Source of the DNA: Micromonospora sp. NBC_01796
GTDB lineage: Bacteria > Actinomycetota > Actinomycetes > Mycobacteriales > Micromonosporaceae
Length of the DNA: 64,000 bases
NCBI RefSeq assembly: GCF_035917455.1
Contig: NZ_CP109078.1
Span: 4,634,001-4,698,000, forward strand
Direction of reading: 5' to 3'
This document shows positions 28,958 through 62,635 of the stretch, piece by piece. Below the pieces are notes generated by a model. The model saw only the letters and a program-made list of their open reading frames with translations. It had not been told where the DNA came from and did not search any database. The position numbers were made by a program, and so were the translations under genes. Numbering within the stretch: the first letter of the stretch is position 1; every line of letters starts with the position of its first letter.

Positions 28958-29112
28958 GGTAGTGACGATGCCATGGCATTGATCCGGTTATGGGCGGTCC
29001 GAGTGATTCGGCCTCCCGGCCCCGAGGTGGCGGCCGGGGAGCGTCGGCGGTGCCACCCGGAGCGGGTCGGATCGGTGCGGCAGGGCAGGATGTACGCCGG
29101 AGGGGGTGGCGC

Positions 29113-47098: not shown

Positions 47099-48165
47099 GT
47101 GACGCGACCGCGACCGCGGTGGCCGAGACCCCGCAGCACGGCGGCGCCACGCCCCCGGCCAAGGGCGGCAAGTGGCGTGGTGACCTGGGCGAGTCGATCA
47201 CCCGCAACCTGGGCCTGCTGGGCGTACTGGCGCTGCTGATCATCATCGGCGCGGTCACCCAGCCCGACCTGTACGGCGACTCCTCCTGGGTGTGGAGCAA
47301 CGTCCTGTCGATCCTCCAGCTCGCCTCCGTGGTCGGTGTGGTCACCGTCGGGATGACCTTCGTGATCATCGGCGGCGGCATCGACCTCTCGGCCGGCGCG
47401 ATCGTGGCGCTGGCCGGGGTGTGGGCCACCACGGTCGCCACCCAGAGCTACGGCGCCGCTGGCATGATCTTCACCGCGATCATCGTCGGTACGGCCGTCG
47501 GGCTGGTGAACGGCCTGTTGATCTCGTATGGCCGGTTGGTGCCGTTCATCGCCACTCTGGCCATGCTGGTCGCCGCCCGAGGGCTGGCCGCCCAGATCTC
47601 CGGCAAGCAGACCCAGGTCTCGGCGAACACCTTCATCAACGGGATCGCCGCGAACAAGTTCCTCGGCATCCCGATCCTGGTCTACATCTTCGCCGGGGTG
47701 GTCGCCGTCGGCTGGGTGCTGCTCAACCGCACCACCTTCGGTCGCCGTACGGTCGCCGTCGGGGGTAACCCGGAGGCGGCCCGGCTCGCCGGAATCAACG
47801 TCAAGTGGCACAGCCTGCTGCTCTACGGGCTCTCCGGGCTCTGCTGCGGGATCGCCGCGATCATGCTGACCGCACAGGCCAACTCGGCCCAGGCGGCCAT
47901 GGGCAACCTCTACGAACTCGACGCGATCGCCGCCGCGATCATCGGCGGCACGCTGCTGAGCGGGGGCCGGGGCACAATCATCGGCTCCGTACTCGGTGTG
48001 ATCATCTTCGCCACGATCACCAACCTGTTCGCGATCAACGGCCTGCCGGTCGAGGTCCAGAACATGGTCAAGGGCGGCATCATCGTCGCCGCCGTACTGG
48101 TCCAGCAATTCCGGTTCAAGTCGGTAACCCAGCTCTTCGCGCGGAACAAGGTCACCACGACCTGA
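47095..48165 (+). CDS. Sugar ABC transporter permease (RbsC-like, CUT2)
   Basis: The 356-residue permease of the BPD_transp_2 family has ten or so helices. Characteristic regions are 'VVGVVTVGMTFVIIGGGIDLSAGAIVALAGV', 'GMIFTAIIVGTAVGLVNGLLISYGRLVPFIATLAMLVAARGLAAQISG', and 'FGRRTVAVGGNPEAARLAGINVKWHSLLLYGLSGLCCGIAAIML' (the GxNxxAARLSGI EAA-like motif). It forms a homodimer with the double ATPase for monosaccharide or cyclitol uptake. ATGA overlap with the ATPase gene. The N-terminus is a 30-residue cytoplasmic Ala/Lys-rich stretch. Confidence 0.94.
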   Translation: MSDATATAVAETPQHGGATPPAKGGKWRGDLGESITRNLGLLGVLALLIIIGAVTQPDLYGDSSWVWSNVLSILQLASVVGVVTVGMTFVIIGGGIDLSAGAIVALAGVWATTVATQSYGAAGMIFTAIIVGTAVGLVNGLLISYGRLVPFIATLAMLVAARGLAAQISGKQTQVSANTFINGIAANKFLGIPILVYIFAGVVAVGWVLLNRTTFGRRTVAVGGNPEAARLAGINVKWHSLLLYGLSGLCCGIAAIMLTAQANSAQAAMGNLYELDAIAAAIIGGTLLSGGRGTIIGSVLGVIIFATITNLFAINGLPVEVQNMVKGGIIVAAVLVQQFRFKSVTQLFARNKVTTT

Positions 48166-48259
48166 GGCACCGCAACCTCCAGGTGACGCCGCACCCAGGC
48201 GCTCGCCGGACCCAACATATCCGCACACCCCCACCATTCAAAGAAAACAGGAGGTCGTT

Positions 48260-49309
48260 ATGACCCAGCAAGCGCGCGACCTGTCGCGCCGCCGGCTGAT
48301 GTTCGGCGGGGCCGCGCTCGGCGCCGGTGCCCTGCTCACCGCCTGCACCAGTAACGAGGCTTCGGCACCCGAGGGCCAGACCAAGGTCGCCGACGCGTCG
48401 GCCGCGGCACCGGGCAAGCCGGTCACCATCGGCTTCTCCGCTCCGGCCGCCGACCACGGCTGGCTCGCCGCCATCACCACCAACGCCAAGGCGCAGGCCG
48501 GGCTCTACTCGGACGTCACCTTCAAGACGGTCGAGGCCGGTGCCGACGCACCCGCCCAGCTCGCGGCGCTCCGTACGCTGATCGCGCAGAAGCCGGACGT
48601 CATCGTCCTGCTCCCGCACGACGGCAAGGAGCTCAACGCCTTCGGCCTGGAGGCCATGAAGGCCGGCATCCCGGTGGTCAACCTCGACCGGGCGTTCCCG
48701 GACGCGCTGGCCTACCGGCTGCAGATCAAGGGCGACAACTACGGCATGGGCGTCTCCGCCGGTAAGTACATCGGCGAGCAGATGAAGGCCAAGAACATCG
48801 CCAACCCGATCATCGGTGAGATCCCGGGTATCGACTCGCTGGAGCTGACCCAGGAGCGCTCGGCCGGCTTCAAGGCCGAGCTGGCCACCTTCGGCTTCAC
48901 CGTGGCCCGGCGGATCCCGGCGGAGTTCACCGCCGACACCGGCCGGGTGGCGGCGTCGCAGCTCCTCCAGGCGCTGCCGAAGGTCGACGCGGTCTGGAAC
49001 CACGACGACGACCAGGGCATCGGTGTGCTGGCCGCCATCACCCAGGCCAACCGCAGCGAGTTCATCATGGTCGGTGGCGCCGGCTCCAAGGCCGCCATCG
49101 ACGCGATCGCCGCGGACAACAGCGTGCTGAAGGCGACCGTCACCTACAGCCCCTCGATGGCATCCTCGGCGATCACGTTGGCTCGCCTGATCGGACAGGG
49201 CAAGGGCATGTCCGACCTGGTCGAGCTGCAGGTCCCGAAGGAGATCACTCTCACTTCGGAGACCATCACCAAGGAGAACGCGAGCACTTACAGCAAGCTC
49301 GGGTTCTGA
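48260..49309 (+). CDS. Sugar-binding lipoprotein (RbsB-like, CUT2)
   Basis: The 349-residue protein has a signal with 'SRRRLMFGGAALGAGALLTAC' (lipobox LTAC, twin-arginine-like start) and a periplasmic-binding-protein I fold. Recognisable regions are 'VTIGFSAPAADHGWLAAITTNAKAQA', 'LRTLIAQKPDVIVLLPHDGKELNAFGLEAMKAGIPVVNLDRAF', 'IIGEIPGIDSLELTQERSAGFKAEL' and 'VDAVWNHDDDQGIGVLAAI'. It captures a sugar or cyclitol outside the membrane and hands it to the permease. CAGGAGG precedes the ATG. A 94-base gap from the permease gene may hold a secondary ribosome or regulatory site. Confidence 0.94.
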   Translation: MTQQARDLSRRRLMFGGAALGAGALLTACTSNEASAPEGQTKVADASAAAPGKPVTIGFSAPAADHGWLAAITTNAKAQAGLYSDVTFKTVEAGADAPAQLAALRTLIAQKPDVIVLLPHDGKELNAFGLEAMKAGIPVVNLDRAFPDALAYRLQIKGDNYGMGVSAGKYIGEQMKAKNIANPIIGEIPGIDSLELTQERSAGFKAELATFGFTVARRIPAEFTADTGRVAASQLLQALPKVDAVWNHDDDQGIGVLAAITQANRSEFIMVGGAGSKAAIDAIAADNSVLKATVTYSPSMASSAITLARLIGQGKGMSDLVELQVPKEITLTSETITKENASTYSKLGF

Positions 49310-49327: not shown

Positions 49328-50536
49328 TTGTCCACTGTAGATAGCGAGCTGCGGGTCGGCATGGTCGGCTACGCGTTCATGGGCGCCGCGCACTCACAGG
49401 CGTGGCGCACCGTGAACCGCGTATTCGACCTGCCGACACGAGCCCGGATGGCCCTGATCTGCGGCCGGGACGAGTCGAAGGTGGCCACGGCCGCCGATCG
49501 GCTCGGCTGGGACGGGTACACCACCGACTGGCGTGACCTGATCAACCGGGACGACATCGACGTGATCGACGTCTGCACCCCGGGTGACAGCCACGCCGAG
49601 ATCACGATCGCGGCGTTGGCGGCGGGCAAGCACGTACTGTGCGAGAAGCCGCTGGCCAACTCCGTGGACGAGGCTCGCGCCATGGTCGCCGCCGCGGCCA
49701 AGGCACAGGCGTTGGGCGTACGGTCCATGTGCGGGTTCAACTACCGCCGGGTCCCCGCGGTCACCCTCATGCGTCAACTGGTCGAATCCGGCCGGCTCGG
49801 CGTCATCCGGCACGTACGTGCGGTCTACCTGCAGGACTGGATTGTCGACCCGCAGTTCCCGCTGGTCTGGCGGTTGCAGCGGGACAGGGCGGGTTCCGGG
49901 GCGCTGGGTGACATCGGCGCGCACATCATCGACCTGACCCAGTACGTGACCGGACAGCGGATCACCGGGGTCAGTGCGATCACCGAGACGTTCGTCAAGG
50001 AGCGGCCGTTGCCGGCGGAGTCCAGCGGGTTGGCCGCCTCCACCGGTAACGGATCCGTCGCCACCGGTGAGGTGACCGTCGACGACGCCGCCGTCTTCGT
50101 GGCGCGGCTCGACGGCGGGGCACTGGCCACGTACGAGGCGAGCCGCTTCGCGACCGGGCGCAAGAACGCGCTGCGGGTCGAGATCAACGGATCGCTCGGC
50201 TCGGTGGTGTTCGACCTCGAACGCCTCAACGAGCTGGAGTTCTACGAGGCCAGCGGCCCGACCGCCGAGCAGGGCTTCAACCGGATCCTGGTGACCGAGG
50301 GCGACCACCCGTACATGTCCGCGTGGTGGCCGCCGGGACACATCATCGGTTACGAGCACTCGTTCACGCACGAGATGCGCGACTTCCTGGAGGCGATCGC
50401 CACCGGGACCGATCCGACCCCGTCGTTCGCCGACGCCCTCCAGGTCCAGCTCGTGCTGGACGCGGTGGTGCGCTCGGCGGAGCTGGGCTCGTCGTGGACC
50501 GAGGTCGAGCCGACGCTCGTCACGGTCGCCGCCTGA
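49328..50536 (+). CDS. Gfo/Idh/MocA-family oxidoreductase
   Basis: The 402-residue NAD(P)-dependent dehydrogenase starts with TTG after AGGGGAGG. The Rossmann domain shows 'VGMVGYAFMGAAHSQAW', 'DVIDVCTPGDSHAEITIAALAAGKHVLCEKPLANSVDEARAMV' (the EKP motif with catalytic Lys) and 'GFNYRRVPAVTLMRQLVESG'. The C-terminal substrate domain has 'DIGAHIIDLTQYVTGQRITGVSAI'. Members oxidise sugars, inositol or glycosides, including C3 oxidation to 3-keto-glycosides. Position at the end of a CUT2 operon fits oxidation of the imported compound. Substrate not determined. Confidence 0.94.
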   Translation: MSTVDSELRVGMVGYAFMGAAHSQAWRTVNRVFDLPTRARMALICGRDESKVATAADRLGWDGYTTDWRDLINRDDIDVIDVCTPGDSHAEITIAALAAGKHVLCEKPLANSVDEARAMVAAAAKAQALGVRSMCGFNYRRVPAVTLMRQLVESGRLGVIRHVRAVYLQDWIVDPQFPLVWRLQRDRAGSGALGDIGAHIIDLTQYVTGQRITGVSAITETFVKERPLPAESSGLAASTGNGSVATGEVTVDDAAVFVARLDGGALATYEASRFATGRKNALRVEINGSLGSVVFDLERLNELEFYEASGPTAEQGFNRILVTEGDHPYMSAWWPPGHIIGYEHSFTHEMRDFLEAIATGTDPTPSFADALQVQLVLDAVVRSAELGSSWTEVEPTLVTVAA

Positions 50537-51256: not shown

Positions 51257-52453
51257 ATGCGTACGGGAATCTGGCTGGTGGGCGCACGCGGCTCGGTCGC
51301 CGTCACCAGCGTGGTCGGGGCCCTGGCCCTGCGAGCCGGGCTCGTCGAGCCGACCGGCTGCGTCACCGAACTCCCCGCACTGCGCAGCCCGGCCCTGCCG
51401 GCCTACGCCGACCTCGTCTTCGGCGGTCACGATCTCGTCCCCACCCCGGTGGTGAAAAAAGCGGAGGCCCTCGCCGCCGCCGGCGTACTGCCGGCCCGGC
51501 TGGTGACCGCGCTTCCGGACGAGCTGGCCGCGGTCGAGAACGAGATCCGTCCCGTCCCCACCGCCGAGCGACAGGCCGACGTGATCGCCGCCCTGGTCGC
51601 CGACCTGACCAACTTCAAGCACCGCAACCGGCTGGACCGGGTGGTGGTGGTGAACGTCTCCGCCACCGAACCCGCCCCGGAACCGGATCCCGCGCACGCC
51701 GACCTGGCCGCGCTGGAGAACGCACTGGCCACCGGTGCCACCGTGCTGCCGAACAGCTCCGCGTACGCGTACGCGGCGTTCACCGCCGGTTGCTCCTATG
51801 TGGACTTCACCCCGTCGACCGGTGCCCGGCTGCCCGCGCTGGCGGAACTGGCCGCCCGCGAGGGGCTGCCGTACGCCGGGCACGACGGCAAGACCGGCGA
51901 GACGCTGGTCAAGTCGGTGCTCGCACCGATGTTCGCGATGCGCAACCTGCGGGTCCGTACCTGGTCCGGGGTGAACCTGCTCGGTGGCGGCGACGGCGCG
52001 AACCTCGCCGAACCGGCCGCGAACGCCGCCAAGGCCGCCAGCAAGCAGCGGGTCCTCGGCGAAACCCTCGGGTACGTGCCGCAGGGCAACACCCGGATCG
52101 AGTACGTCGACGACATCGGCGACTTCAAGACCGCCTGGGACCTGGTCACCTTCTCCGGTTTCCTCGGCACCGCGATGCGGATGGAGTTCACCTGGCACGG
52201 GTGCGACTCGGCGCTCGCCGCGCCGCTGGTGCTGGACCTGGCCCGGCTGACCGCCACCGCGCACCGGACCGGGCGCAGCGGCCCCCTCGGTGAGCTGGCG
52301 TTCTTCTTCAAGGACCCGCTCGGTGAGGGCCCGCACTCGCTGCCGGAGCAGTGGGCCACCCTCTGCGCCTTCGTCCGCCAACTCGACGCCGACGCGGCAC
52401 TGTCGGACGGTCGGGACGGCGACGCTTCGCAGTCCGCCCCGGCACAGGGCTGA
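51257..52453 (+). CDS. Inositol-3-phosphate-synthase-family cyclase (first gene of Ebo operon)
   Basis: The 398-residue protein has MIPS family marks: an N-terminal Rossmann start 'GIWLVGARGSVAVTSVVGALAL', 'VVVVNVSATEPAPE' (the VxxSSTE region), and 'GHDGKTGETLVKSVLAPMFAMRNLRVRTWSGVNLLGGGDGANL' with the catalytic lysines. 'RIEYVDDIGDFKTAWDLVTFSGFLGTAMRMEFTWHGCDSALAAPLVLDL' completes the fold. It should convert glucose-6-phosphate or a related sugar phosphate to a cyclitol phosphate. It differs from the canonical mycobacterial-type Ino1 (about 360 residues). In Ebo clusters of other phyla the cyclase is EboD (a dehydroquinate-synthase homologue); this enzyme takes that place. AGGAAGGAG before ATG. 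Confidence 0.88.
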   Translation: MRTGIWLVGARGSVAVTSVVGALALRAGLVEPTGCVTELPALRSPALPAYADLVFGGHDLVPTPVVKKAEALAAAGVLPARLVTALPDELAAVENEIRPVPTAERQADVIAALVADLTNFKHRNRLDRVVVVNVSATEPAPEPDPAHADLAALENALATGATVLPNSSAYAYAAFTAGCSYVDFTPSTGARLPALAELAAREGLPYAGHDGKTGETLVKSVLAPMFAMRNLRVRTWSGVNLLGGGDGANLAEPAANAAKAASKQRVLGETLGYVPQGNTRIEYVDDIGDFKTAWDLVTFSGFLGTAMRMEFTWHGCDSALAAPLVLDLARLTATAHRTGRSGPLGELAFFFKDPLGEGPHSLPEQWATLCAFVRQLDADAALSDGRDGDASQSAPAQG

Positions 52454-52463
52454 GTGCGGCGAC

Positions 52464-53324
52464 ATGCCCTCCCTGGGTGACTTCGCCGAACTGGTCCGGG
52501 CACCGGCCGCGCTCTCCGTACCCGGAGACGTGGTGGCCGGTGCCGCCGCCGCGGGTGCGCTGGACCGGCGGGTGCCGGGACTGGCCGGTGCCTCCGTGCT
52601 GCTCTACTGGGCCGGAATGGCGGCCAACGACTGGGCCGACCGCCATCTCGACGCGGTCGAACGCCCCGAGCGGCCGATCCCGAGCGGCCGGATCTCACCC
52701 GGCACCGCGTTCGGGGTCTCCGCCGGCCTGACCGCCGCCGGGCTCGCCCTGGCCGGTCTCACCGGTGGGCGCAGGGCGCTGGCCGTGGCGGTGCCGCTGG
52801 CCGGCGCGATCTGGGCGTACGACGTGAAGGCCAAGAACACCGCCGCCGGCCCGGCCGTGATGGCCGCCTGCCGGGGGCTGGACGTCCTGCTCGGGGCGAC
52901 CGGTGGCAAGCCGCTGCGGGCCGTACCGGCGGCGGTGACGGTGGCCGCGCACACGTACACGGTGACCGAGCTGTCCCGGCGGGAGGTCAGCGGCGCCGAC
53001 CGTACCCTGCCCCGGGTGACCCTGGCCGGGACCGCCGTGGTGGCCGCCGCCGCCCTGACCGGCCCCCGCCGCACGGGGTGGCGGGCGTGGATCCCGGCGG
53101 CGCTGACCGCCTGGTACGTCGGCCAGTACGGCACCGCCCAGGCACGGGTCGCCGCCGACCCGGCCGCCGAACGGGTCCGTGCCGCCGTCGGGGCCGGCAT
53201 CACCGGCCTGCCGGCGTTGCAGGGCGCGCTGGTCGCCCGGACCGGCGCCGGCCTGCTCGGGATGGCGGTCGCCGCCGCGGCACCGGTCGGCCGCCGACTG
53301 GCCCGGAAGCTGTCACCGACATGA
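52464..53324 (+). CDS. eboC: EboC, UbiA-type prenyltransferase (SCO3242 family)
   Basis: The 286-residue membrane prenyltransferase has the first Asp-rich motif 'NDWADRHLDAVERPERPIPSGRI' (N55-D56, D59, D63) and a second polar motif 'AYDVKAKNTAAGP' near residue 120. About eight helices are visible. It should transfer a prenyl group to a polar, probably cyclitol-derived, acceptor. Family membership with SCO3242 of Streptomyces and EboC of cyanobacteria and others is my recognition. It starts 10 bases after the cyclase gene. A polyprenyl diphosphate synthase at the end of the same operon can supply its donor. Confidence 0.9.
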   Translation: MPSLGDFAELVRAPAALSVPGDVVAGAAAAGALDRRVPGLAGASVLLYWAGMAANDWADRHLDAVERPERPIPSGRISPGTAFGVSAGLTAAGLALAGLTGGRRALAVAVPLAGAIWAYDVKAKNTAAGPAVMAACRGLDVLLGATGGKPLRAVPAAVTVAAHTYTVTELSRREVSGADRTLPRVTLAGTAVVAAAALTGPRRTGWRAWIPAALTAWYVGQYGTAQARVAADPAAERVRAAVGAGITGLPALQGALVARTGAGLLGMAVAAAAPVGRRLARKLSPT

Positions 53325-53376
53325 GCACCGCCGCTCGGCACGGGCCGGCGGGCCCGGCGCGACGGGGGACCCGACG

Positions 53377-54357
53377 ATGACCGGCCTGCGGTTCGGCTAC
53401 GGCACCAACGGGTTCGCCAACCACCGGCTCGACGACGCCCTGCGAGTCATCGCCGACCTGGGTTACCAGGGCGTGGCGCTGACCCTGGACCACGACCACC
53501 TGGACCCGTTCGCGCCCGGCCTGGCGGCCCGGGTGGGCGCGCTCGGGAACCGGTTGGCCGAACTGGACCTGGGGTTGGTGATCGAGACCGGGGCACGGTA
53601 CCTGCTGGACCCGTGGCGCAAGCACGCGCCGACCCTGCTCGACGACGACCCGGCGCTGCGGATCGAGTTCCTGCGCCGGGCCATCTCGGTCGGAGCGGAC
53701 CTCGGCGCCGAGGCGGTCTCGTTCTGGGCCGGGGTACGCCCGACCGCGCTCGACGAGACCAGCGCCTGGGACCGGCTCGTCGCCGGCTGCGCCGAGGTGG
53801 TCGACGCGGCGTTCACGGCCGGCGTCACGCTCGGCTTCGAACCGGAACCGGGCATGCTGGTGCCGGACATCGCCGCCTGGTGGCGGCTGCGGCACGCACT
53901 CGGCGCACCGCCCGGATTCGGCATCACCCTCGACATCGGACACTGCCGGTGCCTGGAGCCGCAACCGGTGCCGGACTGCGTCGCCGAGGTCGCCGCCCAC
54001 CTGGTCAACGTACAGATCGACGACATGCGGCGGGGAGTGCACGAACACCTCGAGTTCGGCACCGGCGAGATCGACTTCCCACCGGTCCTGCGGGCCCTGG
54101 CCGACGCCGGCTACACCGGGCTGGTCGCGGTCGAGTTGCCCCGCGACTCGCACGCCGCACCGGCCGTGGCCGCCCGCTCGGTCGACTTCCTGCACACCGC
54201 CGCCTGGCAGGCCGAGGTGGCCGTGGAGCAGGTCGGCAACACCGTCGGGCGGGCCGGCACGACCATGCCCGTCCGGCAGCGGGTCGACGAACACAGCGAG
54301 CGGGCCGGCGCGGCCACCACCGTGGCGCGACCGGTCGGTGTGGAAGGGGAGGCGTAA
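53377..54357 (+). CDS. Xylose-isomerase-like TIM-barrel protein of the Ebo operon
   Basis: The 326-residue protein has an AP_endonuc_2 barrel: 'FGYGTNGFANHRLDDALRVIADLGYQGVALTLDHDHLDPF', 'GVTLGFEPEPGMLVPDIAAWWRL' (first metal Glu), 'GITLDIGHCRC' and 'VNVQIDDMRRGVHEHLEFGTGEIDFPPVLRALADAGYTGLVAVELPRDSH'. The metal ligands Glu, Asp, His, His and Glu of the sugar isomerase/epimerase fold are present. It shares the FEPEPG motif with EboE. The Val/Ala-rich tail after residue 290 looks unstructured. Probably an isomerase, epimerase or dehydratase on the pathway intermediate. Confidence 0.88.
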   Translation: MTGLRFGYGTNGFANHRLDDALRVIADLGYQGVALTLDHDHLDPFAPGLAARVGALGNRLAELDLGLVIETGARYLLDPWRKHAPTLLDDDPALRIEFLRRAISVGADLGAEAVSFWAGVRPTALDETSAWDRLVAGCAEVVDAAFTAGVTLGFEPEPGMLVPDIAAWWRLRHALGAPPGFGITLDIGHCRCLEPQPVPDCVAEVAAHLVNVQIDDMRRGVHEHLEFGTGEIDFPPVLRALADAGYTGLVAVELPRDSHAAPAVAARSVDFLHTAAWQAEVAVEQVGNTVGRAGTTMPVRQRVDEHSERAGAATTVARPVGVEGEA

Positions 54358-54965
54358 TGGAACCGGACCAACTACGGGCGGCGCTCTCGGCCGTACCGGA
54401 ACCGGACTGGCTGGACCAGGCGGTGCGGCGGGTCGCGACCGAACCGGAGGCGGTCGGGCGGCTCTTCGCCGCCGCCGGCCGGCGGTGCGGCCGGGCCCCG
54501 CTGCCGGACGCGCCCGGCTGGACCGCCGACGACGCGGCCCGGGTGCTGCTGCTGACCATGCTGCCGGCCGACCGGGTGGTCGGCCAGGTGGAAACCCTCT
54601 ACCGGTACGGCGACGCGGCCGAGAAACGGGCCGTCCTGCGGGCTCTGCCGTGGCTGCCGATCGGGGCCGCCGCCGTCCCGCTGCTGCACGACGCGATCCG
54701 GACCAACGACACCCGGCTGGTCGCCGCCGCCCTCGGCCCGTACGCCGGGCACCTCGACGCCGCCACCTGGCGCCAGGCGGTGCTCAAGTGCGTGTTCATG
54801 GAGGTGCCGCTGGCCGTGGTGGACCGGCTCGACGAGCGCGCCGACGGGGAGCTGGAGATCATGCTCGCCGGGCTGGACGAGGAACGTCGCGCCGCCGGCC
54901 GCACCATCCCGGCCGACGCCACCGCCCTGCTCGACCGGCTCCGACTGACGACGAAAGAGGCGTGA
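54357..54965 (+). CDS. eboA: EboA
   Basis: The 202-residue helical protein matches the EboA family, defined by its place in this cluster: 'DDAARVLLLTMLPADRVVGQVETLYRYGDAAEKRAVLRALPWLPIGAAAVPLLHDAIRTNDTRLVAAALGPYAGHLDAATWRQAVLKCVFMEVPLAVVDRLDERADGELEIMLAGLDEERRAAGR'. HEAT-like helical pairs are suggested. No catalytic residues are obvious, so a scaffold or escort role is likely. The ATG overlaps the previous stop by one base (TAATG), and the TatD gene follows two bases after its stop. Confidence 0.86.
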   Translation: MEPDQLRAALSAVPEPDWLDQAVRRVATEPEAVGRLFAAAGRRCGRAPLPDAPGWTADDAARVLLLTMLPADRVVGQVETLYRYGDAAEKRAVLRALPWLPIGAAAVPLLHDAIRTNDTRLVAAALGPYAGHLDAATWRQAVLKCVFMEVPLAVVDRLDERADGELEIMLAGLDEERRAAGRTIPADATALLDRLRLTTKEA

Positions 54966-54966
54966 C

Positions 54967-55830
54967 ATGCGCATCTTCGACCCGCACATCCACATGACCT
55001 CGCGTACCACGGACGACTACGAGCGGATGGCCGCCGCCGGGGTCCGCGCCCTGGTCGAGCCGGCGTTCTGGCTGGGCCAGCCGCGTACGAGCGTGGGGTC
55101 GTTCGCCGACTACTTCGACTCGCTGGTCGGCTGGGAGCCGTTCCGGGCCAGCCAGTTCGGCATCAAACACTTCGCCACCATCGCACTCAACCCGAAGGAG
55201 GCGAACGACCCGCGCTGCCGGGAGGTCCTCGAACTGCTCCCGCGTTACCTGGACAAGGACAACGTGGTCGCGGTCGGCGAGATCGGGTACGACTCGACCA
55301 CCCCGGAGGAGGACGAGGTCTTCGCCGCCCAACTCGCCCTGGCGGTCGCGTACGACCTGCCGGCGCTCGTACACACCCCGCACCGGGACAAGGCGCGGGG
55401 TACGGCCCGGAGCATCGCCGTGGTGACCGAGTCCGGGATCGACCCCGGTCGGGTGGTGATCGACCACCTGAACGAGGTCACCGTCGAGCAGGTACGCGAC
55501 TCCGGTTGCTGGGCCGGGTTCTCCATCTACCCGGACACCAAGATGTCCCCGCCCCGGATGGTGGAGATCCTGCGCAAGTACGGCACCGAACGGATGCTGG
55601 TCAACTCGGCCGCCGACTGGGGCCGGTCCGATCCGCTGCTGACCCGGACCACCGGCGAGGCGATGCTCGAAGCCGGGTTCAGCGACGACGACGTGGACCG
55701 GGTGCTCTGGCGCAACCCGATCGAGTTCTACGGCCAGTCCGGCCGGCTCGACCTCGCCGAACTGGAGGGTACGGCCGCCGGACCGGAACCGACCTTCGAG
55801 GGCAACTCGATCCTGCGGGGTGGTAGCTGA
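54967..55830 (+). CDS. eboB: EboB, TatD-family metal hydrolase
   Basis: The 287-residue protein starts 'MRIFDPHIHMTSRTTDDY' with H7 and H9 as the first metal ligands. Further ligands are expected at 'VAVGEIGYDSTT' (Glu), 'LPALVHTPHRD' (His) and 'VVIDHLNE' (His), and 'LVNSAADWGRSDP' (Asp). This is the amidohydrolase/TatD pattern, but a split family distinct from nuclease TatD. It probably hydrolyses a pathway intermediate. It ends overlapping EboE by one base (TGATG). Confidence 0.88.
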   Translation: MRIFDPHIHMTSRTTDDYERMAAAGVRALVEPAFWLGQPRTSVGSFADYFDSLVGWEPFRASQFGIKHFATIALNPKEANDPRCREVLELLPRYLDKDNVVAVGEIGYDSTTPEEDEVFAAQLALAVAYDLPALVHTPHRDKARGTARSIAVVTESGIDPGRVVIDHLNEVTVEQVRDSGCWAGFSIYPDTKMSPPRMVEILRKYGTERMLVNSAADWGRSDPLLTRTTGEAMLEAGFSDDDVDRVLWRNPIEFYGQSGRLDLAELEGTAAGPEPTFEGNSILRGGS

Positions 55831-57020
55831 TGCGGCTGCGACATCCGGACGGGCAGACCGTCCACCTGAGCTACTGCACCAACGTCCACCCGGCCGAGGA
55901 CCTGGCCGGGGTGATCAGCCAGCTCGACACGTTCGCCGAACCGATCCGCCGCCGGCTCGACGCCGACGTACTCGGGTTGGGGCTGTGGTTGGCGGCCCCG
56001 GTCGCCGCCGGGCTGGCCGCCGATCCGACACTGCGGCGCCGGCTCCGTACGGAACTCGACGCGCGGGGGCTGGAGGTGGTGACCCTCAACGGGTTCCCGT
56101 ACCGGTCGTTCCAGGCCCCGGTGGTGAAGCTGGGCGTCTACCACCCGGACTGGACCTCGCCGGAGCGGCTGGAGTACACCCTGGACCTGGCCCGAGTGCT
56201 GGTCGACCTGCTGCCCGACGACGCCGCCCGGGGTTCCATCTCCACCCTCCCGCTGGCCTGGCGTACGCCGTGGACCCCGGCGCAGTCCGGTGCCGCCGCC
56301 CGTACGCTCGAACAGCTCGCCGCCGGCCTGGCCTCGATCGCCTGGCAGACCGGGCGGGCGGTCCGGGTCGGCTTCGAACCCGAACCCGGTTGCGTGGTGG
56401 AGAGCACCGCGCAGGCCGCCGCCCAGCTCGCCCGGGTGGACACCGACCGGCTCGGCATCTGCCTGGACCTGGCCCACCTCGCCTGCGCCTGGGAGGAGCC
56501 GGCCGACGCGTTGGAGCAGCTCCGCCGGGCCGGGCTGCCGGTGGTGAAGGTGCAGGTGTCGGCCGCGTTGCAGGCGGACGACCCGGTCGCCGCCGCCGAG
56601 CAACTGAACGGGTACGTCGAGCCGCGCTTCCTGCACCAGACCCGGGGGAGCGGCTGTGCCGGTGCGGCCGATCCGGCCGACCCCGCGTACGCCACCGACG
56701 ACCTGGACCAGGCCCTGGCAGACGGGCTGCCGGGGGCGTGGCGGGTGCACTACCACGTGCCGCTGCACGCCGACCCGGAGCCGCCGCTGCGGTCGACCAC
56801 CCCGGTGCTGCGCGGCGCGCTGCGGGAACTGCTCGGTGGCGACAGCGCCGGGTGTGACCACTTCGACGTGGAGACGTACACCTGGGGGGTGTTGCCGGCG
56901 GCCCGGCGGCCGAACTCGGACGCCGAACTCGTCGGCGGCATCGCGGCCGAGCTGGCGTTCGCCCGGGACGAGTTGGTCGACCTCGGCCTGACCCCCGTGC
57001 CCGCCCCGGTGACGGCATGA
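55830..57020 (+). CDS. eboE: EboE, metabolite traffic protein (TIM barrel)
   Basis: The 396-residue protein begins 'HLSYCTNVHPAEDLAGVISQLDTFAEPIRRRLDAD', the typical EboE start. It has barrel features 'VVTLNGFPYRSFQ...VYHPDWTSPERLEYTLDLARVLVDLLP', 'VRVGFEPEPGCVVES', 'LGICLDLAHLACAWEEP' and 'WRVHYHVPLHADPEPPLRST...HFDVETYTWGVLP'. It is a paralogue of the smaller barrel protein in the operon. In scytonemin-producing cyanobacteria the ebo genes are needed to move a precursor to the periplasm, hence the NCBI name. Role here inferred. Confidence 0.9.
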   Translation: MRLRHPDGQTVHLSYCTNVHPAEDLAGVISQLDTFAEPIRRRLDADVLGLGLWLAAPVAAGLAADPTLRRRLRTELDARGLEVVTLNGFPYRSFQAPVVKLGVYHPDWTSPERLEYTLDLARVLVDLLPDDAARGSISTLPLAWRTPWTPAQSGAAARTLEQLAAGLASIAWQTGRAVRVGFEPEPGCVVESTAQAAAQLARVDTDRLGICLDLAHLACAWEEPADALEQLRRAGLPVVKVQVSAALQADDPVAAAEQLNGYVEPRFLHQTRGSGCAGAADPADPAYATDDLDQALADGLPGAWRVHYHVPLHADPEPPLRSTTPVLRGALRELLGGDSAGCDHFDVETYTWGVLPAARRPNSDAELVGGIAAELAFARDELVDLGLTPVPAPVTA

Positions 57021-57034
57021 CTCAAGGAGAGAAA

Positions 57035-58429
57035 ATGGCACCGCTGGTCGTGATCGACGTGGTGGGGTTGACCCCGCGACTGCTCGCCCACATGCCCCGG
57101 TTGCGGGCGGTGGCCGAAACCGGGTTCGAGGCGGAACTGGGTACGGTGCTGCCGGCGGTCACCTGCTCGGCGCAGGCCACGTTCCTCACCGGTGTGCCGC
57201 CGACCGAGCACGGCATCGTCGGCAACGGGTGGTATTTCCGGGACCTGGGTGAGGTGTTCCTGTGGCGCCAGCACCACGCCCTGATGGGCGGGGAGAAGGT
57301 GTGGCAGGCGGCCCGGCAGGAGCGCCCCGACTACACGGTGGCGAACATCTGCTGGTGGTACGCGATGGGCGCGGACGTCAACTGGACCGTCACGCCCCGG
57401 CCGATCTACTACGCCGACGGCCGCAAGGAGCCGGACTGCTACACCGACCCGCCGGAGCTGCACGACGAGCTGACCTCCAAGCTCGGCGGCTTCCCGTTGT
57501 TCACGTACTGGGGGCCGGGGGCGGGGCTGCCGTCGTCGCGGTGGATCTGCCAGGCGGCGCAGCAGGTGATGGCCACCCACAACCCGGACCTGACCCTGGT
57601 CTACGTCCCGCACCTCGACTACGACCTGCAACGGTTCGGGCCGGGGTCGGCGGAGGCGGCGGCTGCCGCGGCGAAGCTGGACGGGGTGCTCGGCCCGCTG
57701 CTGGACGCGGCGAAGGCCCGTAACGCCACCATCGTGGCGCTCTCCGAGTACGGCATCACCGACGTGTCCCGGCCGGTCGACATCAACCGGCTGCTGCGCG
57801 ACGAGGGGCTGCTGCACGTCTACACCCAGGACGGGATGGAATACCTGGACCCGTGGACGTCGAAGGCGTTCGCGGTCGCCGACCACCAGATCGCCCACGT
57901 GTACGTGAAGGACCCGGCCGACGTCGGCGCGGTGGCGAAGCTCTGCGCCGCCCTGCCGGGGGTGGCCGAGGTGCTCGACGCCGAGGGCAAGGCCCGGTAC
58001 GGCCTGGACCACGAGCGGGCCGGTGAGCTGGTCCTGGTGGCCGAGCCGGACGCCTGGTTCACGTACTACTACTGGCAGGACGACGCGAAGGCACCGGACT
58101 TCGCCCGGCTGGTCGAGATCCACCGCAAGCCCGGGTACGACCCGGCCGAGCTGTTCTTCGACCCGGAGGCGCCCGGTGCGGCGAAGCGGCGGGCGGGGGT
58201 GGCGCTGGCCCGCAAGAAGCTGGGCATGCGGTACATGATGAGCGTGGTCGGGCTGGACGCGGGAGCGCGTGCGGTGAAGGGTTCGCACGGCCGGCTGCCC
58301 GAGGATCCGGCGGACGCCCCGGTGCTGCTCTGCTCGGTGCCCACCGGGGCCGGCGAGAAGATCGCGGCGACCGAGGTCAAGTCGCTGTTGCTGGAGCTGG
58401 CCGGATTCGGCGAGCGGGAGCGGTCATGA
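57035..58429 (+). CDS. eboF: EboF-like nucleotide pyrophosphatase/phosphodiesterase (alkaline phosphatase fold)
   Basis: The 464-residue protein has the NPP/alkaline phosphatase pattern: 'LVVIDVVGLTPRLLAHMPRL' (first metal Asp), 'TVLPAVTCSAQATFLTGVPPTEHGIVGNGWYF' (nucleophile Thr in V-T-C-S-A-Q-A-T), 'YVPHLDYDLQRFG', 'IVALSEYGIT' and 'VADHQIAHVYVKD'. It lacks a signal peptide, so it acts in the cytoplasm, cleaving a phosphodiester or phosphate. I chose the ATG with AAGGAG 9 bases upstream; an ATG six codons earlier overlaps the EboE stop. Confidence 0.88.
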   Translation: MAPLVVIDVVGLTPRLLAHMPRLRAVAETGFEAELGTVLPAVTCSAQATFLTGVPPTEHGIVGNGWYFRDLGEVFLWRQHHALMGGEKVWQAARQERPDYTVANICWWYAMGADVNWTVTPRPIYYADGRKEPDCYTDPPELHDELTSKLGGFPLFTYWGPGAGLPSSRWICQAAQQVMATHNPDLTLVYVPHLDYDLQRFGPGSAEAAAAAAKLDGVLGPLLDAAKARNATIVALSEYGITDVSRPVDINRLLRDEGLLHVYTQDGMEYLDPWTSKAFAVADHQIAHVYVKDPADVGAVAKLCAALPGVAEVLDAEGKARYGLDHERAGELVLVAEPDAWFTYYYWQDDAKAPDFARLVEIHRKPGYDPAELFFDPEAPGAAKRRAGVALARKKLGMRYMMSVVGLDAGARAVKGSHGRLPEDPADAPVLLCSVPTGAGEKIAATEVKSLLLELAGFGERERS

Positions 58430-59493
58430 CCGCGACCGCGCCGCTGACCGACGCGGCGGAGTTGCGGAAGCGGTTCGACGCGCAGTTGTCGGCGTTCCTG
58501 GGGCGGCAGGACCCGGACTGGCCGGACGGGGCGCCGCGCGGTGTCTTCACCACCCTGCACCGGTTCGTGCTGGCCGGCGGCAAGCGGTTGCGGCCGATGT
58601 TCTGCTACTGGGGTTGGCGCGGTGCCGGCGGGGTGGACGACACCCCGATCGTGGTCGCGTCGGCGGCCCTGGAGCTGTTCCACGCCTTCGCCCTGATCCA
58701 CGACGACATCATGGACGGCAGCGACCGGCGCCGGGGCGAGCCCTCGGTGCACCGCCTCTTCGCCGACCTGCACACCCGTTCGTCGTGGCGGGGCGACCCG
58801 GCCTCGTACGGGCGCAGCACCGCCCTGCTCTGCGGTGACCTCTGCGCCGCCTGGGCGGACCAGATGTTCCACGAGTGCGGCCTGAGCGCCGACCAGGTGC
58901 ACCAGGGGTACGGCGTGTTCGCGAACATGCGTACCGAGGTGATCGCCGGGCAGTACCTGGACCTGGTCTCCGGGGTCGGGGACGGTTCGGTGGCGAGCGC
59001 CCTGACGGTGATAAGGATGAAGGGCGCCCGCTACACGGTGACCCGGCCGTTGCAGATCGGGGCGGCGCTGGCCGGTGCCGGTCCGGAGCTGCTGTCGGCG
59101 TTCGCCGCCTTCGGTGACCCGCTCGGGGACGCGTTCCAGCTCCGTGACGACGTGCTCGGGGTCTTCGGCGATCCGGCGGTCACCGGCAAGTCGGTGCTCG
59201 ACGATTTGCGGGAGGGCAAGCCTACGGTGATGATGGCTTTGGCGAGGGGCAGTGCCGACCGGGAGCAGGCGCTGCGGTTGAAGGATCTGTTCGGCAACCC
59301 GGACCTGGACCCGGAGGGTGCCGCCGAGCTGCGCGGGATCATCCTCGACACCGGGACCCTGGACCGGATCGAGCAGATGATCCGGGTCCGTACGGACGCC
59401 GCGCTGGCGGCGTTGGTCGACGCTCCGGTGTCGGCGCAGGCAAAGGCGCAGCTCGCGGCGCTGGCCGCGGAGGCGACCGATCGGCGCCACTGA
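58426..59493 (+). CDS. Polyprenyl diphosphate synthase
   Basis: The 355-residue trans-isoprenyl diphosphate synthase has 'LAGGKRLRPMFCYWGW' (G51-G-K-R-L-R-P), first Asp-rich motif 'LIHDDIMDGSD' (D93-D-I-M-D97) and 'TEVIAGQYLDLVSG'. Second is 'FQLRDDVLGVFGDPAVTGKSVLDDLREGKPTVMMALA' (D-D-x-x-G...G-K). It extends allylic diphosphates with IPP. The residues before the first motif, 'ALELFHAFAL', suggest a C20 or slightly longer product but do not settle it. It overlaps the EboF gene by four bases, so the operon carries its own prenyl donor enzyme for EboC. Confidence 0.92.
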   Translation: MTATAPLTDAAELRKRFDAQLSAFLGRQDPDWPDGAPRGVFTTLHRFVLAGGKRLRPMFCYWGWRGAGGVDDTPIVVASAALELFHAFALIHDDIMDGSDRRRGEPSVHRLFADLHTRSSWRGDPASYGRSTALLCGDLCAAWADQMFHECGLSADQVHQGYGVFANMRTEVIAGQYLDLVSGVGDGSVASALTVIRMKGARYTVTRPLQIGAALAGAGPELLSAFAAFGDPLGDAFQLRDDVLGVFGDPAVTGKSVLDDLREGKPTVMMALARGSADREQALRLKDLFGNPDLDPEGAAELRGIILDTGTLDRIEQMIRVRTDAALAALVDAPVSAQAKAQLAALAAEATDRRH

Positions 59494-59776: not shown

Positions 59777-62635
59777 ATGTCCACATTGGACGCACCAAGA
59801 ATCCGACCCGGGCGCTGGCAGACAGCGGGATCAGCCCTGCTACTCGTCGCCGCGACCCTCACCACGGTGGTCACCACCACCGCGGCCCCCGCCCAGGCCC
59901 ACGCGATCAACGCGGCCGACTTCCAGCAGGTCACCCTGGCCCGTGGCGAGGCCGAGGTCGGCGAGCCGATGACCATCGCGGTCCTGCCCGACCGCTCGGT
60001 CCTGCACACCGCCCGCAACGGCACGCTGCGGCGTACCGACGCGAACGGGACCACCGCCGTCGTCGGCACCCTGCCCGTCTACACCCACGACGAGGAGGGG
60101 TTGCAGGGCGTCGGGGTCGACCCGGGCTTCGCCACCAACCGGTTCATCTACCTCTACTACGCCCCGCCGCTGTCCACCCCGGCCGGTGACGCCCCCGCGA
60201 CCGGCACGAGCTGGACCGCCTGGCAGGGCGTGAACCGGCTCTCCCGGTTCACCGTCAACGCCAACTGGACGCTGAACATGGCCAGCCAGGTCAACGTCCT
60301 CGACGTCGCCGCCGACCGCGGCATGTGCTGCCACGTCGGTGGCGACATCGACTTCGACGCGGCCGGCAACCTCTACCTGTCCACCGGTGACGACTCCAAC
60401 CCGTTCGACTCGGCCGGCTACTCGCCGATCGACGAGCGGACCAACCGCAACCCGGTGTACGACGCCCAGCGCTCCGCCGGCAACACCAACGACCTGCGCG
60501 GCAAGATCCTGCGGATCAAGGTGAACGCCAACGGGACGTACTCCATCCCCTCCGGCAACCTGTTCGCCCCCGGTACGGCGAACACCCGCCCCGAGATCTA
60601 CGCGATGGGCTTCCGCAACCCGTTCCGGATGAGCGTGGACAAGACCACCGGTTACGTCTACGTCGGTGACTACGGCCCGGACGCCGGCTCCACCAACGCC
60701 AACCGGGGACCGAGCGGACAGGTCGAGTTCAACCGGGTCACCTCGCCCGGCAACTACGGCTGGCCGTACTGCACCGGTACGAACACCAGCAGCGAGACGT
60801 ACAACGAGTGGACCTTCCCGGACGGGCCCGGCAACGCCAAGTACAACTGCACCGGCGGCCCGACCAACAACTCGTTCCGCAACACTGGTCAGACCACCCT
60901 CCCGGCGGCCCGCCCGGCCTGGATCCGGTACGCCGGTGACGCCGGCACCCCGCCGGAGTTCGGCGGCGGCTCCGAGTCCCCGATGGGCGGCCCGGTCTAC
61001 CGCTACAACGCCTCGAACCCCTCCACCACCAAGTTCCCGCAGTCCTTCGAGGGGCAGTTCTTCGCCGGTGAGCTGGGCCGGGGCTGGATCAAGCCGATCC
61101 ACGTCAACACCGACGGCTCGGTCGGCACGATCGACACCTTCCCCTGGGTCGGCAAGCAGATCATGGACATGGCGTTCGGCCCCGACGGCGCGCTCTACGT
61201 CCTCGACTACGGCACCGGCTACTTCAACGGCGACGCGAACTCGGCCCTGTACCGGTTCGACTACATCGCCGGCGGCAACCGGGCCCCGACCGCGGTCGCC
61301 TCGGCCAACCGGACCTCCGGCGCGGCGCCGCTCGCGGTGACGTTCTCCTCGGCCGGCTCGTCCGACCCCGAGGGCAGTGCGCTGACGTACTCCTGGGCGT
61401 TCGGTGACGGGACCACGTCGACGGCGGCCAACCCGACCAAGACGTACACCGCCAACGGCACCTACAACGCGACCCTGACCGTACGGGACAGCGCCGGTGC
61501 CACCGGCAGTGCCAGCGTGATCATCAGTGTCGGCAACACCGCCCCGACGGTGACCATCACCGCCCCGGCCAACGGGCAACTGGTCGCCTTCGGTGACGCG
61601 GTTCCGTTCCAGATCACGGTCACCGACCCGGAGGACGGCACGGTCGCCTGCTCCCGGGTCAAGATGACGTACGTGCTGGGCCACGACACCCACGGCCACC
61701 AGATCACCTCGGCCAACGGGTGCACCGGGACCATCACCATCCCGACCGACGGTGAGCACGACGACGCGGCGAACATCTTCCCGATCTTCGACGCCGAGTA
61801 CACCGACAACGGCGGGCTGACCACCCACACCCAGCACATCCTCCAGCCCAAGCACCGGCAGGCCGAGCACTTCAAGACCTCGTCCGGCGTCAACACGTTC
61901 ACCAAGACCCCGGCCGAGGGTGGCCGGACCGTCGGTGACATCAACAACGGCGACTGGATCGCGTTCGAGCCGTACCGGCTCGCCAACGCCACCTCGTTCA
62001 GCGCCCGCGTCTCCTCGGCCGGCGCCGGCGGCACCCTCCAGGTGCGGGCCGGTTCCGCTACCGGCACCGTGCTCGGCTCGGCGACCGTACCGGTCACCGG
62101 CGGCTGGGAGACCTTCGTCAACGTCACCGGCACCATCAGCAACCCGCCGTCCGGCACCACCACGCTCTACCTGACCTTCGCCGGCACCGGCACCGGGGCG
62201 CTCTACGACCTGGACGCCTTCACCTTCACCACCGGCACCGGCGGTGGTGGCGGCGGCACCGGCCCGATCAAGGGCCTGGCCGGCAAGTGCCTGGAGGTCG
62301 ACGGCGGCGCCACCGCCGACGGCACCCAGATCCAGATCAACACCTGCGCCGGTACGCCGCGCCAGACCTGGACCGTCAACGGCCAGACCCTGCGGGCGCT
62401 GGGCAAGTGCCTGGACATCTCCGGTGCCGGCACCGCCAACGGGACCAAGATCCAGCTCTGGACCTGCAACGCCACCGGCGCGCAGAACTGGGTCCCCCAG
62501 GCCGACGGCACCCTGCGCAACCCGACCACCGCCAAGTGCCTGGACATCTTGAACGGCAGTTCGGCAGACGGTCAGAACGCCCACCTCTGGGACTGCATCA
62601 CCACCGCCGCCAGCCAGAAGTGGACCCTCCCGTAA
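59777..62635 (+). CDS. Secreted PQQ-dependent sugar dehydrogenase-like protein with PKD, CBM6-like and ricin-B domains
   Basis: The 952-residue protein has a signal peptide (cleavage after 'APAQA'). A GSDH-type six-bladed propeller follows (about 45-495; 'EEGLQGVGVDPGFATNRFIYLYY', 'CHVGGDIDFDAAGNLYLSTGD', 'GFRNPFRMSVDKTTGYVYVGDYGPD', 'SPGNYGWPYC', 'MAFGPDGALYVLDYGTGYF'). Then come PKD (500-585), an Ig-like region (586-690), a CBM6-like domain (694-820; 'QAEHFKTSSGV...IAFEPYRL'), a Gly linker and a ricin-B trefoil (830-952). It probably oxidises polymer-bound or free sugars at the cell surface. PQQ dependence is family inference. Operon leader for the ThuA gene. Confidence 0.93.
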   Translation: MSTLDAPRIRPGRWQTAGSALLLVAATLTTVVTTTAAPAQAHAINAADFQQVTLARGEAEVGEPMTIAVLPDRSVLHTARNGTLRRTDANGTTAVVGTLPVYTHDEEGLQGVGVDPGFATNRFIYLYYAPPLSTPAGDAPATGTSWTAWQGVNRLSRFTVNANWTLNMASQVNVLDVAADRGMCCHVGGDIDFDAAGNLYLSTGDDSNPFDSAGYSPIDERTNRNPVYDAQRSAGNTNDLRGKILRIKVNANGTYSIPSGNLFAPGTANTRPEIYAMGFRNPFRMSVDKTTGYVYVGDYGPDAGSTNANRGPSGQVEFNRVTSPGNYGWPYCTGTNTSSETYNEWTFPDGPGNAKYNCTGGPTNNSFRNTGQTTLPAARPAWIRYAGDAGTPPEFGGGSESPMGGPVYRYNASNPSTTKFPQSFEGQFFAGELGRGWIKPIHVNTDGSVGTIDTFPWVGKQIMDMAFGPDGALYVLDYGTGYFNGDANSALYRFDYIAGGNRAPTAVASANRTSGAAPLAVTFSSAGSSDPEGSALTYSWAFGDGTTSTAANPTKTYTANGTYNATLTVRDSAGATGSASVIISVGNTAPTVTITAPANGQLVAFGDAVPFQITVTDPEDGTVACSRVKMTYVLGHDTHGHQITSANGCTGTITIPTDGEHDDAANIFPIFDAEYTDNGGLTTHTQHILQPKHRQAEHFKTSSGVNTFTKTPAEGGRTVGDINNGDWIAFEPYRLANATSFSARVSSAGAGGTLQVRAGSATGTVLGSATVPVTGGWETFVNVTGTISNPPSGTTTLYLTFAGTGTGALYDLDAFTFTTGTGGGGGGTGPIKGLAGKCLEVDGGATADGTQIQINTCAGTPRQTWTVNGQTLRALGKCLDISGAGTANGTKIQLWTCNATGAQNWVPQADGTLRNPTTAKCLDILNGSSADGQNAHLWDCITTAASQKWTLP

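Follow-up and report, generated by a model that had tools for sequence, protein, structure and literature searches.

An inositol-phosphate-synthase-like enzyme in place of EboD in actinobacterial ebo clusters, and a prenylated cyclitol lipid as their possible product

What does the ebo pathway make, and on which ring is it built? The question is raised by a 64,000-nucleotide stretch of Micromonospora sp. NBC_01796 (NCBI RefSeq assembly GCF_035917455.1, contig NZ_CP109078.1, positions 4,634,001 to 4,698,000 of the forward strand; hereafter the window, numbered from its first letter), which carries an ebo-type operon that opens with a protein related to myo-inositol-1-phosphate synthase (MIPS). 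Ebo genes are found across bacteria and in the plastids of some algae, and affect scytonemin export and nematode avoidance. The operon is defined by six genes, of which eboD encodes a dehydroquinate-synthase-like sugar phosphate cyclase with sedoheptulose 7-phosphate as its guessed substrate, and an isoprenoid-cyclitol metabolite, that is, a prenylated cyclitol, is proposed as the product (Yurchenko et al. 2016, PMC5133447).

The operon consists of eight genes, all on the + strand, and spans positions 51257-59493:

51257..52453, + strand: MIPS-like cyclase of the inositol-phosphate-synthase family (Pfam PF07994, 165 bits; PF01658, 104 bits)
52464..53324, + strand: EboC-type UbiA-superfamily prenyltransferase, SCO3242 family (NF045897, 380 bits, cut-off 260; Pfam UbiA, 65 bits)
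53377..54357, + strand: extra xylose-isomerase-like TIM barrel (PF01261, AP_endonuc_2, 118 bits)
54357..54965, + strand: EboA-domain protein, predicted all-helical (NF035938, 159 bits, cut-off 50)
54967..55830, + strand: EboB, TatD/amidohydrolase-like (PF01026, TatD, 53 bits)
55830..57020, + strand: EboE, a TIM barrel of the xylose-isomerase superfamily (NF035939, 403 bits, cut-off 250; AP_endonuc_2, 43 bits)
57017..58429, + strand: EboF, type I phosphodiesterase / alkaline-phosphatase-like (PF01663, Phosphodiest, 221 bits)
58426..59493, + strand: trans-prenyl diphosphate synthase (PF00348, polyprenyl_synt, 158 bits)

An earlier note, made from the sequence of the window, had described eight unidirectional ebo-type genes here, and Pfam and NCBIfam confirm their coordinates, strands and families; its wording that most overlap by 1-4 bases is just right, four of the seven junctions overlapping (1, 1, 4 and 4 bases) and three being gapped (10, 52 and 1 bases). 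The prenyl diphosphate synthase that it assigned to the cluster is likewise found, as the last gene. Its description of the cluster as complete fails: no operon gene matches the canonical, dehydroquinate-synthase-like EboD in a Pfam scan, and the MIPS-like enzyme and the extra TIM barrel stand in its stead. The profile searches that it proposed recover EboE and the EboA domain over their cut-offs, but the narrower EboC model (NF035940) gives only 128 bits, under its cut-off of 250, although the SCO3242 model is exceeded. Gene order is conserved, as it had expected: MIPS-EboC-TIM-EboA-EboB-EboE-EboF recurs in actinobacterial loci, with some rearrangements. Curated NCBIfam cut-offs thus support EboE, the EboA domain and the SCO3242 prenyltransferase, while EboB, EboF, the TIM barrel, MIPS and the prenyl synthase rest on Pfam. 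Judged by gene content, the operon is a real, widespread variant of the known but unsolved ebo pathway, in which the MIPS-like enzyme and an added TIM barrel take the place of EboD, EboA, EboB, the EboC-type enzyme, EboE and EboF being retained.

Is gene 1 an inositol-type cyclase? Both Pfam domains of inositol-phosphate synthases are present in it and the active-site residues are conserved. Its best solved relative is Archaeoglobus Ino1 (1u1i; 236 bits over most of the length), against 57 bits for the five-membered-cyclitol synthase 6k96 and 32 bits for 1gr0. As read from the alignment, K263 aligns with the lysine changed in 3qvw, and K259, K263, K291, K352 and N240 are identical in 94/94 aligned ebo-type MIPS proteins (the context of one row, L140, being unchecked). 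We take K259, K291, K352 and N240 to be catalytic residues. The actinobacterial mycothiol INO1 equivalog model (TIGR03450) gives gene 1 33 bits, under its cut-off of 638. A mis-called EboD was ruled out, as gene 1 gives no dehydroquinate-synthase match in Pfam. Defence-system profiles searched against the MIPS and EboA proteins gave zero matches.

A working MIPS could merely supply ordinary inositol phosphate for mycothiol or phosphatidylinositol, and gene 1 does carry the residues of one, at least as predicted. However, the same genome holds a separate Ino1 (G000:C1:2938462) that lies far from the ebo MIPS in a MIPS tree with open forks. The ebo MIPS is moreover tied to ebo genes, to judge from the loci surveyed below, and we regard ordinary inositol supply as highly improbable.

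In order to determine how general the exchange is, we looked for EboE at three taxonomic levels, obtaining matches in 14 of 296 genomes of the phylum (13 of them over the cut-off), in 98 of 394 of the class (90 over) and in 64 of 101 of the window's family (62 over), and searched the stretches around the matches by phmmer with the window proteins and three EboD queries, calling presence above 40 bits for cyclases, 60 for TIM barrels and 50 for other genes. The survey set (n=105) comprised the window, 14 loci from the phylum search and 90 from the class search, the latter made up of the 84/84 further places above the cut-off plus six stretches surrounding matches below it. Removing 11 lone EboE-like loci (five over and six under the EboE cut-off) left 94; with 20 loci picked from the 62 over-cut-off own-family genomes and three plasmid-collection records (L042-L044), the actinobacterial total is 117. 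The EboD-type total of 62 comprises 51 of 80 named loci, eight plasmids and three Chloroflexota loci.

MIPS is present in 109 of the 117 actinobacterial ebo loci and EboD in none. In the survey set of 94, 87 loci carry MIPS, none EboD and seven neither; among the 20 own-family loci, 19 have MIPS and none EboD; and the actinobacterial records L042, L043 and L044 all carry MIPS. Conversely, the 80 named loci found by EboE include 51 with EboD, none with MIPS, five with neither and 24 lone EboE-like genes (some of them actinobacterial), and the eight plasmid-borne clusters and three Chloroflexota loci carry EboD. Within the fetched stretches, none of the 62 EboD-type loci has MIPS, and no locus has both enzymes. 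The extra TIM barrel (>60 bits) accompanies MIPS, being found in 83/87 MIPS-type but 0/51 EboD-type loci. A local accident of this strain is ruled out by the actinobacterial count.

The EboE profile also detects EboE-like genes that stand without other ebo genes (24 of the 80 named loci, including L065, L070, L074, L084, L105 and L118, and 11 of the 105 survey loci), near Gfo/Idh and NAD_binding_2 dehydrogenases. These form a distinct family of paralogues that may be catabolic, and were set aside, as belonging to another pathway, when clues to EboE chemistry were sought. Ferritin-like genes were seen, by annotation and phmmer, beside several EboD-type clusters (flanks of L037, L038, L046, L048 and L089), and PF12902 occurs in 4/117 EboD-type flank open reading frames (ORFs).

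The combination also occurs outside the actinobacteria. Gemmatirosa kalamazoonensis (Gemmatimonadota) has MIPS, TIM barrel, EboC, EboF, EboB and EboE together, along with a weak match (42 bits) to a small Deinococcus protein, taken for EboG by position. Plasmids of Halobaculum, Halocatena and Natronococcus carry MIPS, EboB, EboF, a UbiA-type gene and two TIM barrels, and no clear EboA or EboE was found in these plasmid clusters; Haladaptatus has EboB, EboF, UbiA and TIM genes, with no MIPS found in the examined stretch. The haloarchaeal plasmid clusters without clear EboA or EboE and with two TIM barrels are L125, L126, L127 and L235. The control genome of Haloferax volcanii gave an EboE match below the cut-off.

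Was the ring maker exchanged once or repeatedly? EboB and EboF of the window are homologous, by phmmer, to proteins of named EboD-type clusters, with which they were placed in one EboB+EboF tree. In this tree the actinobacteria adjoin EboD-type lineages, among them Rokubacteria and Myxococcota (82/94), and the EboD-type clusters of Acidobacteriota, Deinococcus and Herpetosiphon group with that of Gemmatirosa at 100/100; the haloarchaea sit on a long branch. Forcing actinobacteria and Gemmatirosa together is rejected by an approximately unbiased (AU) test (p-AU 3e-5), on 22 rows (nine MIPS-type and 13 EboD-type, grouped by cyclase) that were chosen after the larger tree had been inspected and exclude the haloarchaea. 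A single bacterial MIPS-type clade is thereby rejected and, provided that the tree model is right, two or more exchanges of the ring-making module are probable. Such repeated exchange within an otherwise retained pathway suggests that EboD and MIPS plus TIM barrel feed the same or an equivalent ring; the likelier substrate of EboD would then be a C6 sugar phosphate, not sedoheptulose 7-phosphate.

The EboC-type gene carries NDWADRHLD, fitting the Asp-rich UbiA motif DXXDXXXD (PMC9235831). The nearest solved relative of the extra TIM barrel is the UlaE 3-epimerase (47 bits), IolE being weaker (23 bits). EboE sequence searches against the PDB gave zero matches at E<=0.01; with its structure model (pLDDT 89.6), the top Foldseek match is xylose isomerase (E 9.7e-9), and the list contains xylose isomerases, epimerases and also the dehydratase AsbF. 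EboF matches phosphonoacetate hydrolase 3szy at 35 bits. EboA, which falls under the cut-off of its narrower family model (NF035937, 70 bits; cut-off 320), has an all-helical structure model (pLDDT 95.9) for which a fold search returned zero PDB matches at E<=0.001, and is perhaps a scaffold. The prenyl diphosphate synthase is probably a short-chain enzyme of trans type, its best model being the farnesyl/geranyl synthase NF042416 (325 bits, under the cut-off of 600). Its presence chiefly characterises the window's own family, where it adjoins the cluster in 17/20 loci (>50 bits), as against 10/87 MIPS-type survey loci; in L019, L146 and L169 it lies upstream of MIPS, on the other side of the cluster, so that it was perhaps recruited more than once.

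From gene content, residues, the swap and the neighbouring genes we infer the reactions, the product and its role as follows. MIPS would convert glucose-6-phosphate to a C6 cyclitol phosphate, from which EboF (in some copies an inositol monophosphatase) would remove the phosphate; isomerisation, epimerisation or dehydration of the ring would fall to the TIM barrel and EboE, perhaps aided by the Gfo/Idh dehydrogenase encoded next to the operon. A short prenyl diphosphate would come from the product of the last gene, and EboC would join ring and tail in the membrane, giving a prenylated cyclitol or inosose lipid. This lipid would serve the exported enzymes encoded beside the cluster (GSDH and keto-sugar proteins in the present case, ScyE in that of cyanobacteria); the simplest role would be that of a membrane carrier for small molecules, as proposed by Klicki et al. 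(PMC6282210). We put this reading forward tentatively, giving it not quite an even chance. The earlier note had also arrived at a prenylated cyclitol-type product; this agrees with the published proposal (PMC5133447) and so is not a new inference, the novelty lying in the inositol-type ring maker.

Which enzymes might such a lipid serve? Three features flank the operon:

59780..62635, + strand: protein with GSDH, PKD, CBM6 and ricin-B domains (Pfam), a member of the neighbour family recurrent at ebo clusters
49328..50536, + strand: upstream Gfo/Idh/MocA oxidoreductase of sugar or cyclitol dehydrogenase type (Pfam; levoglucosan dehydrogenase model 369 bits, under its cut-off of 650)
44355..49309, + strand: ROK regulator and monosaccharide-type ABC importer, with ATPase, permease and binding protein (Pfam, NCBIfam)

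The GSDH protein is probably exported, judging by eye from a signal-like start. Clustering of flank ORFs without a prior list yields one leading family, of GSDH / ThuA / 3-keto-disaccharide-hydrolase proteins, beside 56/91 MIPS-type and 11/62 EboD-type loci, these being upper figures (single linkage, multi-domain proteins); its members are predicted from signal-like starts and domains to be exported. With the window GSDH as query, matches were found at 38/87 MIPS-type, 6/51 EboD-type and 0/35 lone-EboE loci. A GSDH gene lies in the stretch at 29/41 loci (40 genomes with known GSDH counts) against 0.68 expected under uniform placement; detection was by phmmer and background by Pfam count, L019, whose genome lacked a GSDH count, was excluded, and since the loci are related the very small P should be read with caution. 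Depending on the lineage, the GSDH gene stands upstream or downstream (seven and eight, respectively, of the 15 own-family loci having it), and this variation between and within lineages counts against pure inheritance of the neighbourhood. In Pfam scans of flank ORFs, the MIPS-type set (n=92) contained TIM barrels (21), 3-keto-disaccharide hydrolases (14), PKD (13), CBM6 (12), ThuA (7) and GSDH (7), and the EboD-type set (n=117) GSDH as its commonest family (7) and cbb3-type cytochromes (5); in the control set (n=113), neither GSDH nor 3-keto-disaccharide hydrolase appears in the 25 most frequent families, the smallest of which has three members. These scans took 28/90, 35/62 and 32/34 loci and excluded ORFs of at least 1500 residues, so that long GSDH proteins are under-counted; flank ORF L090:2-745 was excluded from alignment A4, leaving 113/114 scanned.

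The upstream Gfo/Idh/MocA protein matches the solved structures 4h3v (545 bits) and 6a3f (305) and, at 201 bits, scyllo-inositol dehydrogenase 5ya8. Gfo/Idh genes occur in 15/20 own-family loci, and the ABC binding protein in the stretch at 8/20 own-family and 8/87 MIPS-type survey loci. Elsewhere in the window, two LtrA-family genes were noted (26852-28051, - strand; 38997-40190, + strand), one near a DnaG primase gene (28990-30981).

These neighbours might instead mark a locus for carbohydrate use, in which GSDH makes keto-sugars outside the cell that are then imported and processed, EboB, EboE and the TIM barrel being catabolic. TIM barrels and 3-keto-disaccharide hydrolases are the commonest MIPS-type flank families (21/92 and 14/92), ABC importer, ROK and Gfo/Idh genes stand beside the window copy and others, and the Haladaptatus cluster is adjoined by DUF1080, Gfo/Idh and TIM genes. 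Catabolism, however, has no need of a cyclase, a prenyltransferase or a prenyl diphosphate synthase, and the ebo core is retained where the sugar-use neighbours are absent; we consider this explanation doubtful, well below the next two in probability.

The first of these is that the clusters exist to make one particular metabolite, secreted or placed on the surface, that protects or repels and does not assist other enzymes. The isoprenoid-cyclitol proposal of Yurchenko et al. (PMC5133447) and the nematode avoidance conferred by the Pseudomonas EDB cluster (as told in PMC6282210) would agree with this, as would the copies that lie near biosynthetic genes: L043 is near a nonribosomal peptide synthetase (NRPS) condensation-domain gene, and SCO3242 and SCO3243 appear in the gene list of the CDA antibiotic cluster of S. 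coelicolor (PMC3610822). In Nostoc, in contrast, where ebo genes are linked to scytonemin-monomer translocation (Klicki et al. 2018, PMC6282210), the ebo mutants tested accumulate the same scytonemin precursor, and an ebo-specific intermediate was not detected (PMC6282210). Moreover, EboE is over the cut-off in 62/101 own-family genomes, which we judge commoner than is usual for a special metabolite. We consider a dedicated metabolite unlikely.

The second is that the product acts in redox chemistry, as a cofactor or electron acceptor whose ring is oxidised or aromatised and prenylated like a quinone, and that its partners are exported oxidoreductases of the beta-propeller kind (GSDH, ScyD/ScyE). 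The superfamily to which both TIM barrels belong includes dehydratases, and redox neighbours judged to be exported occur in several phyla (the GSDH and cbb3-type cytochrome genes of the EboD-type flanks); a GSDH-cupredoxin fusion lies near the ebo-like cluster of Natronococcus, and a ScyD/ScyE-family gene beside the ebo cluster of a Streptomyces plasmid. Of 40 ebo genomes, all of them GSDH-bearing, only four have a PqqE match above the cut-off. PQQ (pyrroloquinoline quinone) might, however, be taken up from outside the cell, which weighs against this alternative. The window's genome (G000) has 21 GSDH-family matches, many in long open frames, while PqqE is under the cut-off. Ubi-297, the EboC of marine Flavobacteria, prenylates aromatic acceptors (PMC9235831), and Klicki et al., who proposed the membrane carrier, also weighed a cofactor (PMC6282210). 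Both an aromatising step and the use of PQQ by these GSDH proteins would nevertheless have to be supposed, and the tested Nostoc mutants point elsewhere: the scytonemin monomer stays in the cytoplasm in ebo mutants and reaches the periplasm in a scyE mutant, which fits transport better (PMC6282210). A redox cofactor would therefore fit the neighbours better and the Nostoc localisation less well, and we rate it as rather improbable, whereas a prenylated carrier that helps exported enzymes obtain their substrate fits both the localisation and the neighbours.

A bolder version of the carrier or cofactor reading has a similarly low probability in our view: that the product of ebo clusters represents a novel class of membrane cofactor or carrier, a prenylated cyclitol derivative whose ring is of inositol type where MIPS and TIM barrel supply it (actinobacteria, Gemmatimonadota and haloarchaea) and an equivalent one where EboD does (elsewhere), and that it is dedicated to exported GSDH/ScyE beta-propeller oxidoreductases, possibly as a redox partner where PqqE is not over the cut-off (36/40 genomes).

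Several points weigh against the prenylated cyclitol lipid that we favour. MIPS and the sugar-phosphate cyclases may give different rings; if the downstream enzymes are tolerant, the products could differ. A MIPS-family gene is found elsewhere in 9/15 genomes reached through other loci (11/15 EboD-type), so that supply in trans is possible for EboD-type hosts. UbiA-297 was shown to farnesylate 6/14 aromatic acceptors, quinolines best, rather than cyclitols (PMC9235831), and the genes deleted in Nostoc did not include eboD (PMC6282210). Neither a product nor an enzyme activity of the ebo pathway was found described in the literature. As for the neighbours, Gfo/Idh genes are unenriched in the survey (9/87 MIPS-type against 6/35 lone-EboE loci), 49/87 MIPS-type loci have no GSDH match in the fetched stretch, and GSDH genes are abundant in these genomes, with 21 in that of the window. 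Kinship of the loci also reduces the independence behind the 29/41 GSDH figure. The neighbourhood also fits plain carbohydrate use.

Both cyclases, furthermore, are missing from eight of the 117 actinobacterial loci. Three of the eight (L166, L199 and L200) are cut off by the end of a contig; L032 is a broken locus, and several genes have been lost from L251. In L020 (L020:13412-16308) and L158 (L158:12837-15325), the MIPS slot holds an inositol monophosphatase (PF00459, Pfam-checked for L020) and an FAD-dependent oxidoreductase, and the genomes of both also carry MIPS-type copies (L021 and L170). L194 (L194:9144-14134) lacks MIPS and TIM barrel and has an ABC sugar-binding protein and a Gfo/Idh gene directly before EboC; here the ring precursor is perhaps imported rather than made. 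L020, L158 and L194 thus offer hints of inositol even in clusters without MIPS.

How much of this had been noticed before? The earlier note considered the product of an actinobacterial version undescribed, and we too found the product described nowhere; the genes themselves have been partly noticed, as an ebo region in Saccharomonospora is shown in PMC9235831, an actinobacterial EboA fused to a xylose-isomerase-like part is mentioned in PMC5133447, SCO3242 and SCO3243 are among the listed CDA genes noted above (PMC3610822), and NCBIfam already holds the SCO3242 prenyltransferase model (NF045897). The word "inositol" is absent from the main texts of PMC5133447, PMC6282210 and PMC9235831, and our searches of the open-licence literature brought up neither the MIPS/EboD swap and the fact that it recurs, nor ebo members in haloarchaea and Gemmatimonadota, nor the link with GSDH. 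The replacement of a known ring maker by an inositol-type enzyme narrows the possible product and points to the ring, making a C6 cyclitol from glucose-6-phosphate a concrete candidate for the first metabolite. The Gemmatimonadota and haloarchaeal clusters extend the pathway, the latter to another domain of life, and the sugar-dehydrogenase neighbour that recurs across cyclase types offers a general hint at what the pathway serves.

How, then, does the window compare with known systems? Its cyclase resembles the archaeal-type Ino1 of Archaeoglobus (1u1i) in the 236-bit match, the K263 lysine and the further invariant residues; in contrast to that enzyme, it is encoded inside an ebo operon and is an inositol-type cyclase by prediction from its sequence. 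Ubi-297 is likewise a UbiA-superfamily enzyme of an ebo cluster, but its cluster is described with EboD and the acceptors tested with it, in the farnesyl transfer that was shown, were aromatic (PMC9235831). SCO3242 of S. coelicolor belongs, by model NF045897, to the same prenyltransferase family, and its gene number adjoins a myo-inositol phosphate synthase, SCO3243; the pair is listed only as CDA cluster genes (PMC3610822), and the likeness is one of model and gene number. With the canonical eboA-F operon, as described in PMC5133447 and PMC6282210, the window shares an EboA domain, EboB, an EboC-type UbiA enzyme, EboE and EboF in one operon; it differs in having MIPS and an extra TIM barrel instead of EboD and, in its own family, an added prenyl diphosphate synthase.

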